DNA from: Algoriphagus sp. NG3
Lineage (GTDB): Bacteria > Bacteroidota > Bacteroidia > Cytophagales > Cyclobacteriaceae
Direction of reading: 5' to 3'
Assembly (NCBI RefSeq): GCF_034119865.1
Contig: NZ_CP139421.1
Span: forward strand, 1,798,001 to 1,862,000
DNA length: 64,000 nucleotides
Part shown: positions 3-2,896 of the stretch, piece after piece
Position numbering within the stretch: position 1 is the first letter of the stretch
How the letters are laid out: each line of letters starts with the position of its first letter
Translations under genes and position numbers: made by a program
The notes under the pieces: model-generated
The model's input: the letters and a program-made list of their open reading frames with translations, nothing else
Database searches by the model: none
What the model was told of the DNA's origin: nothing

Positions 3-581
3 CTTGCAGCTCAGATGCAAGTCAGCATGCCTACCGTAAACAGTATGGTCAAAACTCTTCAAAAGAATGGCTGGCTGATCTATGAAAAATACAAGCCTGT
101 TATTCTAACTGCCAAGGGAAAGAGAGAAGCGGCGCTAATAATCCGTAAACATAGACTCACGGAAATGTTCTTGGTCAATAAAATGGGCTTTGGCTGGGAA
201 GAAGTACATGAAATCGCCGAACAGGTGGAGCATATCCATGCCCCCAAGTTCTTTGAGCGTATGGACGAAATGATGGGTTTCCCAACAATAGACCCCCATG
301 GCTCTCCTATTCCCGATAAGCAAGGAAGGATTCAGGAAAGGAACTACATTCCCCTAAGCAAATGCACCAAAGGACAACAAGTGAAGCTTGCGGCCCTGAC
401 CAATTCCTCGACTGAATTTTTGGAATTTCTGAATAGTCGGGATCTTCAGCTAGGTACAGAACTTACGATAAAATCTGTAGAGTCCTACGATCAGAGTATG
501 GTAGTCGCCTATGCAGGTCATGATTCAGAGACCTTGAGCGATAAGGTATGCGACCGGCTTCTGGTTGGGGTGGTTGGATAG
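3..581 (+). CDS. DtxR/MntR-family metal-dependent transcriptional regulator (5' partial)
   Basis: Metal-responsive repressor of the DtxR/IdeR/MntR family, expected to sense Mn or Fe and repress metal uptake genes. The gene is cut by the window start: the frame is open upstream of the first ATG (position 15) and reads LAAQMQVSMPTV, which is the recognition-helix part of the winged HTH. After it come the wing and the dimerisation region (IIRKHRLTEMFLV, then EEVHEIAEQVEHI). A helix with HAPKFFERMDEMMGFP corresponds to the family's dimerisation/metal-site region, followed by PHGSPIP, a typical DtxR phrase. The C-terminal part (about the last 75 residues) looks like a FeoA/SH3-like domain. So the full protein is of the long, three-domain type. 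The exact metal cannot be told from sequence. The family call is firm; the regulon is unknown. Confidence 0.85.
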   Translation, partial: LAAQMQVSMPTVNSMVKTLQKNGWLIYEKYKPVILTAKGKREAALIIRKHRLTEMFLVNKMGFGWEEVHEIAEQVEHIHAPKFFERMDEMMGFPTIDPHGSPIPDKQGRIQERNYIPLSKCTKGQQVKLAALTNSSTEFLEFLNSRDLQLGTELTIKSVESYDQSMVVAYAGHDSETLSDKVCDRLLVGVVG

Positions 582-626: not shown

Positions 627-980
627 TCATTCCGAAAACGCCTCACTTGGAAACGTGCTCAGATAATATTCTAGGTAGTTCAAATCAAGAGAGAGGAAGT
701 TTTCACCCACTGAAGTTTTCTTCTTAATCTGTTCGACAATAGCCTCCTTGGAATATGATTCACCATTTAAGGTAGATACTTGGGTATTTTCTTCAGAGGC
801 CTGGTATCGCTTGATGGCAAGTTTGATACGGGAGTCATCATCTAGCTTAGCAAGTGTATAAATTTTCTGCTCTCCTCTGGAAACTTTGTCGTAATAAATA
901 AATTCCTGGGTGAAGGGATTGTAGCTCAATGGCTTTGCTTTGGCAGCCTCTACTATAGGTGGCAATATGATCTTTTTCAT
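627..980 (-). CDS. Small protein equal to the N-terminal domain of the neighbouring caspase-like protein
   Basis: 117 residues with no signal peptide, membrane segment or known catalytic motif. It aligns along most of its length with residues 3-113 of the caspase-like protein encoded just upstream (58 bp gap, same strand). The best shared blocks are IKLAIKR (52-58) with AKLAIQR, YSKEAIVEQIKKKTSVGE (76-93) with YSKAEIISHIENQTSLGR, and YLEYYLSTF (102-110) with YAEYQLNQM. The two genes therefore share one domain, here alone and there fused to a protease-like domain. By analogy with adaptor domains in caspase systems it could bind the neighbour through like-like contact, either activating or restraining it; this is inference. 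The family is not one I recognise. Co-transcription is likely from spacing. Confidence 0.7.
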   Translation of the reverse strand: MKKIILPPIVEAAKAKPLSYNPFTQEFIYYDKVSRGEQKIYTLAKLDDDSRIKLAIKRYQASEENTQVSTLNGESYSKEAIVEQIKKKTSVGENFLSLDLNYLEYYLSTFPSEAFSE

Positions 981-1038
981 AAATTCAAATATAACTATTC
1001 AGCAGCTGCTTTATGGAAAGCAGCTGCTAATTAGAAAA

Positions 1039-2157
1039 TTACAAACGCTTAATAGCAAAATCTGCCAACGTCATATTGTAGAACAGATACGGTTGGATTT
1101 TAGCCGTTTTACTGCCCCAGGCACTTCCAGACACAGCTGTACGCAGCAGATCCCGGTTTTGCATCAGCAGCGCTGCCGTAGTAGTTCCCGGCACAGCTGC
1201 CATCCCCACGTTAAATTGCGCTACTGTATCAGCCACAGCCTGCTGCACTGTCCTGCCCAGTGCCATGCTGATATCGTACTGGGAATCAGCCTTCCAGAAC
1301 AATTGGGAATTTGCCCAGGTGAAAGTGAAGTTTTCATTGTAGCCGGCAAATGAATAAGCACCTTTTGACACGGTGTCTGGCCCCAAATCCCTTCCTGTCC
1401 TGCAGCTCAAAAAGTGGATAGAACTATGATCTACCTCCTGCGCATCGTAGGAACCTACCCGGATCAAGCTGGAATTGTTATGCCCGGTGAATACATTGTA
1501 ATTTCCATGTCCTATGCCACTGATATAGACAACACGTTGTTCCTTTGCCCTAGCCGCAAAATTTGTTCGGTTATCGTTGACACCGGTGAGCGTGATAACT
1601 TCAAATCCCCGGTTTTTAAAAACCGGATGCACATTATTTATCCTGTAGTTTGCGGCTTCATTAGTCACATTGTCTGTGGTATTTTCACAGAATAGGACTT
1701 TATTGGAAAAAAGTTTCCAATTGACCTTAGGAATGATTTTCCACTCTGTAGGTATGGTAGGAAGGATTTCTGCTTTTGGCATTACAAAGCGAACCGGAGT
1801 AACTGGGATTTTGCCTAACATCTGATTAAGCTGATATTCTGCATATTTTGCTTCAGCATCAGCTAGTTGCCTTCCTAAAGAAGTTTGATTTTCAATATGG
1901 GAAATTATCTCTGCTTTAGAATATATCCCTGCATTTATAACTCCGATTTTCAAATCAGGTTCTTGTTTGATCCGTTGGATTGCAAGCTTTGCCTTATTGT
2001 CCAATGAAGTAAGATCCAACCCAAACTTGGGAGGTATTCGACCTGAAACTATTTCTTTGGCATGCATAAAGGAACCATCGCTCCGTATGCCCATTGCTTT
2101 TCCTGCTGCAAATTCCGGTAGACTGAGTTTACCTAGTTTTATTGTTTTCATAATCAT
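1039..2157 (-). CDS. Caspase-like (clan CD) cysteine protease-like protein with an N-terminal adaptor-type domain
   Basis: 372 residues, apparently cytoplasmic (no signal peptide). Residues 3-113 form a domain shared with the small protein encoded downstream. Residues about 140-300 look like a caspase/gingipain-type alpha/beta fold: a hydrophobic strand VVYISGIGHGN supplies a candidate catalytic His217, and the next strand IHFLSCRTGRDLG supplies Cys252. This is the His-Gly then Ser-Cys arrangement of clan CD peptidases, with GAYSFAGYNE following the Cys as in C25/CHAT-like proteins. The C-terminal 70 residues are of unknown type. The start could be Met1 or Met3 (two residues later); neither has a ribosome site. 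Possible roles are self-regulated proteolysis, a conflict/cell-death effector, or a processing enzyme. The protease assignment rests on motifs only; substrate and activity are unknown. Confidence 0.6.
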   Translation of the reverse strand: MIMKTIKLGKLSLPEFAAGKAMGIRSDGSFMHAKEIVSGRIPPKFGLDLTSLDNKAKLAIQRIKQEPDLKIGVINAGIYSKAEIISHIENQTSLGRQLADAEAKYAEYQLNQMLGKIPVTPVRFVMPKAEILPTIPTEWKIIPKVNWKLFSNKVLFCENTTDNVTNEAANYRINNVHPVFKNRGFEVITLTGVNDNRTNFAARAKEQRVVYISGIGHGNYNVFTGHNNSSLIRVGSYDAQEVDHSSIHFLSCRTGRDLGPDTVSKGAYSFAGYNENFTFTWANSQLFWKADSQYDISMALGRTVQQAVADTVAQFNVGMAAVPGTTTAALLMQNRDLLRTAVSGSAWGSKTAKIQPYLFYNMTLADFAIKRL

Positions 2158-2207
2158 GTTAATTAGGATCTGTGCCTACTTTTTACGGTTTCGGCTATCC
2201 GTTCCTA

Positions 2208-2623: not shown

Positions 2624-2896
2624 TCAGAGTTTCCTAGCCTGTTGTAGTTTTTCCTTTATGGATTCATAACTCCCCTCATACTCCCAATATACAATCCTTC
2701 CAAAAGCGTAAGTTGTCAATATAAACTTTTCGCTGACAGAAAGAATCCTATCAATCGCTACTAATTTTTTCGCTGGTGTGTCTACTGCCACTTCTTCAAT
2801 TATTTCTTTGTTGTCTACATCGAAACCATGTAAAATCTGATGATTTCCCACGATGAGTTCTACATATCCTTTACGGTGCTTTCCATTTTTGCTCAT
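2624..2896 (-). CDS. Hypothetical 90-residue protein
   Basis: A small soluble protein starting MSKNGKHRKGYVELIVG, with alternating hydrophobic residues suggesting several beta strands, then a C-terminal helix (YESIKEKLQQARKL). No signal peptide, zinc motif or known family is seen. It lies on the same strand as the caspase-like unit but 466 bases upstream of it, and downstream of the S9 peptidase gene behind that gene's terminator, so it is probably transcribed on its own. Coding is supported by a clean start, plausible composition and lack of a better frame. It could be functionally tied to the caspase-like pair, but nothing in the sequence proves that. Confidence 0.55.
   Translation of the reverse strand: MSKNGKHRKGYVELIVGNHQILHGFDVDNKEIIEEVAVDTPAKKLVAIDRILSVSEKFILTTYAFGRIVYWEYEGSYESIKEKLQQARKL

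Follow-up and report, generated by a model that had tools for sequence, protein, structure and literature searches.

Among the 64,000 nucleotides (nt) of Algoriphagus sp. NG3 contig NZ_CP139421.1 considered here (the window), two neighbouring genes on the minus strand encode a predicted caspase-fold cysteine peptidase of 372 amino acids (aa) and, 58 nt downstream on the same strand, a 117-aa partner related to the peptidase's own N-terminal domain (the N-domain). The pair is a real and conserved two-component protease module; since the two genes adjoin each other, if rarely, in widely separated microbes, it is very probable that they function together, most likely as an enzyme and its regulator. 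The mechanism is something we infer: we put at roughly 0.4 the probability that the peptidase is latent and cytosolic, and that the partner acts on it in trans, through the binding mode of the N-domain, as a propeptide-like inhibitor. An earlier note on this stretch, made from its letters alone, had already described the two genes as a pair and had suspected a caspase-like enzyme; the evidence below bears out both points, and departs from the note on the age of the partner and on the adaptor role suggested for the shared domain.

The larger protein does contain the GHG (His217) and then SC (Cys252) arrangement of clan CD peptidases to which the note had drawn attention. Its structural model (predicted local distance difference test, pLDDT, 95.1; predicted template modelling score, pTM, 0.93) has, by its structural fold matches, the alpha/beta fold of the clan CD caspases and gingipains, including the caspase-type sheet, with His217 coming after strand 209-215 and Cys252 after strand 246-250. 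A search returned 154 peptidase homologues with an expectation value (E) of 0.001 or lower, and 116 of the best 120 of these make up, with the window protein, an alignment of 117 rows; P0001 (98% identical) and three short rows (P0014, P0043 and P0046) were dropped. Both residues of the dyad are invariant in all 117 rows, as they were in the 36 of a first alignment, and predicted fold and conserved dyad agree on the clan. E158, D291 and D295 are invariant as well, and D162 is kept in 115 rows. The linker (residues 114-152) has little secondary structure and yet pLDDT block means of 94-97, which makes it probable, as far as the model goes, that it packs on the enzyme. It carries a tryptophan at position 139 in 113 of the 117 sequences and a lysine or arginine at positions 140 (108) and 144 (96).

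Pfam, NCBIfam and PADLOC yielded no convincing family for either protein (among the PADLOC 2.0.0 models nothing at E <= 10), so that the shared domain goes as unrecognised here as it did in the earlier note. At E <= 0.1, none of the 117 peptidase members matched Pfam Peptidase_C25; the 11 Pfam families listed for them at this threshold include none of CHAT, Peptidase_C14, C13 and C50, and a single member matched TPR_11 (E 0.053). Since C25 is unmatched and a strongly hydrophobic segment is absent from the peptidase, we rejected the label of a secreted gingipain; the stand-alone partner gene is a further difference from the gingipains (MEROPS C25, RgpB/Kgp). Ratios of nonsynonymous to synonymous substitution rates (dN/dS) of 0.043-0.048 for the peptidase (computable in only 3 of 10 pairs) and 0.094-0.176 for the partner (only 4 of 10), with dS at least 1.4 in both cases, suggest purifying selection only.

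The match between the N-terminus of the peptidase and its small neighbour is not a chance one. In a single BLASTP comparison a stretch of 60 aa is 33% identical (E 1e-8), and profile-profile alignment with hhalign pairs partner residues 1-115 with peptidase residues 3-118 at a probability of 98.8% (E 1.2e-16). When the host's own 5.89-Mb genome is searched, the peptidase profile recovers the partner open reading frame (ORF) at E 4.4e-12, and either profile matches nothing beyond the pair at E <= 10. The partner model (pLDDT 93.6, pTM 0.85) runs through two short strands, a helix, a long helix, two strands, a helix and a long helix, the same order of elements as in residues 20-113 of the peptidase model.

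At the same time, the partner is not the recent copy that the note's wording, a stand-alone copy of the protease's own domain, would imply. In a joint tree one branch separates all 39 N-domains from all 38 partners with support of 100/98, and the split is present in 99% of 200 bootstrap trees; the tree is built from every third alignment row, 77 in all, over as few as 115 columns, and the program warns of long branches meeting at this very split. The partner, moreover, is nearly as similar to other N-domains (21.6% identity) as to its own (22.5%). Judged from these sequences the partner is an ancient paralogue of the N-domain, and the split, taken together with the near-equal identities, argues that a single duplication probably preceded the spread of the module. 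The partner alignment holds 112 rows, the window protein and 111 listed homologues (one search listed the best 120 of 152), and omits P0121, which is identical, together with eight homologues from among the longer ones. Peptidase and partner identity matrices, compared over 19 loci (L021, with its broken peptidase frame, and L015, which lacks a partner, were omitted), correlate with a Mantel r of 0.87 (p 1e-4), or 0.82 when four close loci are removed (n=15, p 1e-4), as co-inheritance would predict.

We assembled 21 loci (the window, 19 from a scan of genome contigs and viral contig L040), and in all 20 that can be evaluated the partner gene follows the peptidase gene directly, without a change of strand, at a gap of 10-567 nt. 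None of the three conditions that the note named as refuting its reading is borne out here: the predicted fold has the caspase-type sheet, the dyad is conserved, and every locus that can be evaluated has the partner. The contig scan by itself gave a partner ORF in this place in 18 of 19 loci, the exception being L015, where the contig ends right after the peptidase and the locus is hence not evaluable. The records of these 19 loci name Bacteroidota, Planctomycetota (Phycisphaerae), Chloroflexi, Zixibacteria, WOR-3, Sumerlaeota, deltaproteobacteria, Acidobacteria, Verrucomicrobia, 'Ca. Hebobacterum' and one Bathyarchaeota metagenome-assembled genome (MAG), it being understood that the taxonomic labels of MAG loci can be wrong. 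Each of the 19 genomes behind the loci has one peptidase. In these genomes and the host's own, the only traces of the domain outside the pair are a decayed fragment and four hits with E-values of 0.17-0.83. The fragment (L017 11305-11541, genome G084) is a second partner remnant between the peptidase and the intact partner; in another locus, from a MAG, a stop splits the peptidase frame (L021 9995-11146) and the partner frame is open.

The distribution of the pair is rare and patchy. Of 72 genomes of the genus, 4 have the peptidase, and it is the same 4 that have the partner (three of them being the genomes of L005-L007); among 392 evenly drawn Bacteroidota genomes, that of the host is the only one with the pair. 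In two genomes, G043 and G007, the site stands empty: the regulator gene found beside the pair in the window is succeeded there by genes known from the flanks of the pair in other members of the genus, and the pair itself is missing. The pair is an accessory cassette, and it shares with type II toxin-antitoxin systems the organization of a two-gene accessory cassette, as both the genus count and the two empty sites attest. A Chryseobacterium pair is 73% (peptidase) and 58% (partner) identical to that of the window, and its presence in an organism of a different class fits horizontal transfer.

A second shared feature lies between the genes. In the window, the 71-nt hairpin region folds with a minimum free energy of -24.4 (z -4.96), and the 58-nt gap as a whole has a z of -5.95. 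By a criterion of -15 kcal/mol or lower within a 60-nt stretch, a local measure that has no control, an intergenic hairpin is found in all 16 loci whose gap is at least 58 nt (the window, L005-L008, L010, L012-L014, L016, L017, L019, L020, L022, L023 and L040); the remaining four of the 20 loci, with gaps of 10-30 nt, are too short for one. Over the whole gap, z is -3 or lower in 12 of the 16 (L014, L016, L017 and L020 miss this value); of 40 further gaps between same-strand genes in these loci, 50-250 nt long, 4 reach it (Fisher p 4e-6), in a comparison where four of the 16 loci are closely related, the control gene calls are crude and the L017 gap, at 567 nt, exceeds every control gap. The hairpin sequences are unrelated between phyla, and a run of T follows the hairpin in L005-L008 and not in the window. 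In a count of covariation, three base pairs are changed on both sides among five sequences (the hairpin of L008 is a different one), a number reached by 50 of 500 shuffles. We infer that the hairpin sets the ratio of peptidase to partner.

What the partner does to the peptidase is best approached through relatives and analogues. The closest structural relatives of the peptidase with a known N-terminal propeptide are the gingipains. According to PMC10319874, recombinant Rgp propeptides inhibit Arg-gingipains with inhibition constants (Ki) of 13-29 nM, and inhibition by the Kgp propeptide is weak, at about 10-13 uM. Two other reports describe a stand-alone propeptide-like inhibitor encoded beside subtilases (PMC6993865) and the transcriptional coupling of SpeB to its inhibitor Spi (PMC3462683). 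It is the propeptide inhibition of gingipains, together with inhibitors of the SUB1-ProM and Spi types, that leads us to propose the partner as a trans-acting regulator that would use the binding mode of the N-domain. Like propeptide-like inhibitor pairs, the window pair combines a partner homologous to the N-domain (98.8%) with gene adjacency (20/20 evaluable). In SpeB-Spi and SUB1/SUB1-ProM, too, a protease gene stands beside a small gene, and SUB1-ProM resembles the propeptide of its protease; the protease folds (papain, subtilisin) are unrelated to ours, and the window pair differs in spanning many phyla and in that its inhibition is putative. Spi, for its part, resembles the propeptide of SpeB.

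The general course of events can be sketched as follows. Consider a cell that carries the pair. Gene 1 would give rise to a cytosolic clan CD cysteine peptidase of the caspase/gingipain fold, its activity and its location both being predictions, and the N-terminal alpha/beta domain and linker of this enzyme would probably pack on the catalytic domain, the N-domain acting as a regulatory prodomain. Gene 2 would supply a dedicated partner, a fold of the N-domain type standing alone, split off by the ancient duplication, which docks in trans as the N-domain does and keeps the peptidase silent. Activation would then follow when the partner is lost or displaced, or when the conserved W-[KR]-x-x-x-[KR] linker is cut. 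The S1 pocket of gingipains is acidic, and because the peptidase has conserved acidic residues of its own, we would guess that it prefers a basic P1 and might cut itself at a site in the linker.

Several points weigh against this proposal. The basic P1 specificity is argued from the S1 pockets of gingipains and from conserved acidic residues. A folded, confidently placed N-domain would, in the model, fit a structural subunit equally well as a prodomain. The enzyme-first gene order, with a hairpin that possibly lowers expression of the partner, would be odd for an inhibitor that is needed in excess. Finally, no partner was found anywhere in G082, the genome of L015, where the contig end makes the locus unevaluable and the pair gains no support.

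A somewhat less probable alternative gives the partner the role of an obligate, non-catalytic subunit or an activator: an ancestral homodimer of N-domains would have become a heterodimer of N-domain and partner, which would serve to assemble, to sense a signal or to present substrates. A duplication of this kind would account both for the linkage in 20 of 20 loci and for the separate clades, and it sits well with the one-to-one copy number (18 of 19 genomes, L015/G082 being the exception), with the confident placement of the N-domain in the peptidase model, and with an enzyme-first order and a hairpin that suit production at a controlled ratio. The gingipains, however, close structural relatives with known N-terminal propeptides, are inhibited by them, and by this analogy the partner appears more likely to be an inhibitor than an obligate subunit. 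In some CRISPR-linked protease cascades small partners are cut, and the partner might likewise be a substrate or substrate tag whose cleavage by the protease releases a signal or effector. We consider this improbable: a substrate has no need of whole-length homology to the protease's own N-domain, and the partner is compact (pLDDT 93.6), without a long disordered part. Least probable of all is the homotypic adaptor of the earlier note. By this reading the shared domain would be effector-associated (EAD) and would tie the protease to a wider network of cell death or immunity. A protease with a stand-alone domain has the right architecture (the principle is set out in PMC7159879 and PMC8195603). 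Adaptors, however, recur across architectures, and in the 20 genomes searched the domain occurs only in the two contexts of the pair, save for the decayed fragment and hits with an E-value of 0.17 or worse; distant loci share no third gene; and the shared domain is alpha/beta, where the adaptor radiation described in PMC8195603 is alpha-helical.

If the partner is indeed an inhibitor, the pair adds to clan CD a peptidase family with an unnamed regulatory domain, in a minimal two-gene system where a caspase-fold enzyme is controlled by a paralogue of its own N-domain; it would bear on how caspase-type proteases are silenced in prokaryotes, and it offers concrete residues for testing (H217, C252, W139, K140 and K144). 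A controlled self-damaging or anti-invader protease is our leading guess at its cellular role. It is possible, if doubtful, that the pair represents an undescribed, horizontally spread module of bacteria and perhaps archaea in which a caspase-fold death or defence protease is checked by a free-standing version of its own regulatory domain that diverged in ancient times, with the hairpin setting the dose; were this so, it would be a prokaryotic counterpart of caspase/prodomain-only regulation by way of an unnamed alpha/beta domain. CARD-only proteins of the ICEBERG type, stand-alone versions of a caspase N-terminal domain, resemble the partner in this respect; they have the helical death fold and occur in animals and animal viruses, whereas the shared domain of the window is alpha/beta. 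From SAVED-CHAT and the TPR-CHAT of craspase the window family differs in having no convincing Pfam match to CHAT, SAVED, TPR or CRISPR families, and the pair in having no conserved third gene. The words gingipain and C25 are absent from the accessible part of a survey of prokaryotic caspase homologues (PMC3501461), and we recognised no description of the pair in a full-text literature whose coverage leaves most subscription papers outside.

Accessory spread and the phage-like contig L040 hint weakly at a role in defence. A search of plasmids gave no match, one of phages gave a single distant catalytic relative, and one of viral contigs gave a single locus, L040. On that contig (L040 1-5569) the pair precedes genes for an HNH endonuclease, the small and large terminase subunits and a portal protein. 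The phage relative, vir519_00054 of a Methanofastidiosa virus (L041 3905-4651, BK063666.1), has 248 aa, is 29% identical over 133 aa of the catalytic domain with GHG and LSC retained, and matches Peptidase_C25 weakly (E 0.015); the N-domain failed to align to it, no profile search for a partner having been made there, and it has a C-terminal segment that reads by eye as hydrophobic.

A defence island is unsupported. Pfam was run on one flanking gene of the window and on 29 proteins from the neighbourhood of 17 of the 19 loci. Their functions are a mixture of metabolism, transport and regulation; one protein, beside L022, matches a Phd/YefM-type antitoxin, and another, beside L020, matches MraZ. 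No cluster besides the pair recurs widely next to the peptidase across distant loci; the remaining clusters of neighbours reflect synteny within Algoriphagus, artefactual frames or genes that lie at a distance. In two loci a gene for a BrkB-family membrane protein lies just upstream on the opposite strand (L006 8642-9652 and L009 8728-9771).

Table 1. Features of the peptidase-partner locus, in window coordinates.
Feature	Position	Strand	Basis
Caspase-fold cysteine peptidase (predicted), 372 aa	1039..2157	-	ORF; start possibly 2151
Stand-alone partner, 117 aa, paralogue of peptidase N-terminal domain	627..980	-	ORF, BLASTP, hhalign, model
Peptidase N-terminal shared domain, residues 1-113, alpha/beta	1819..2157	-	homology to partner; modelled secondary structure
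Peptidase linker, residues 114-152, proline-rich	1702..1818	-	model and alignment
Peptidase catalytic domain, residues 153-372	1042..1701	-	model and fold matches
His217 codon (GHG), putative catalytic	1507..1509	-	alignment
Cys252 codon (LSC), putative nucleophile	1402..1404	-	alignment
RNA hairpin, intergenic (peptidase/partner)	999..1030	-	folding of gap
Upstream element including ACGGATAGCCGAAACCG (2186-2202)	2173..2203	-	identity across 4 Algoriphagus loci

The closest peptidase homologues among the matches listed are 370 aa long and begin at what is M3 of the window protein, and the true start may therefore be at 2151. The window opens in an iron-dependent regulator gene (3-581, plus strand), its family assigned through an 89%-identical counterpart, which is convergent to the minus-strand pair. 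Upstream of the pair lies a 90-aa ORF (2624-2896, minus strand) that PADLOC matches weakly to MTase_II (E 0.0007, 16.6 bits); a part of this ORF, 33 aa, finds a counterpart next to the empty site of L043 as well. The Bacteroidota promoter motif has one match in the window, far from the pair, against 4.03 expected.

Upstream of the peptidase, the 17 nt ACGGATAGCCGAAACCG are identical in four Algoriphagus loci. If one mismatch is allowed, 5 of 71 genomes of the genus contain them, three in front of the pair and two at other places; G020, a genome with the pair, was outside this set. The upstream element resembles the cis-regulatory RNA DUF805b of Rfam, a family to which we do not claim that it belongs: it scores 17.4 bits, under the gathering cut-off of 35.6, with an E-value of 0.0085 in a search of 161 nt and of 0.11 in one of 2141 nt. 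DUF805b gave nothing at L007 and no match at L008, a scan of the host genome lists chance-level sites of like score and not the upstream element, and all 14 control genomes give matches below the cut-off. The host genome also holds five DUF805b members above the cut-off. By a crude look at the longest ORF, the RNAs at L061, L062, L064 and L065 precede ORFs of 93-132 aa, three of which start with a hydrophobic stretch.
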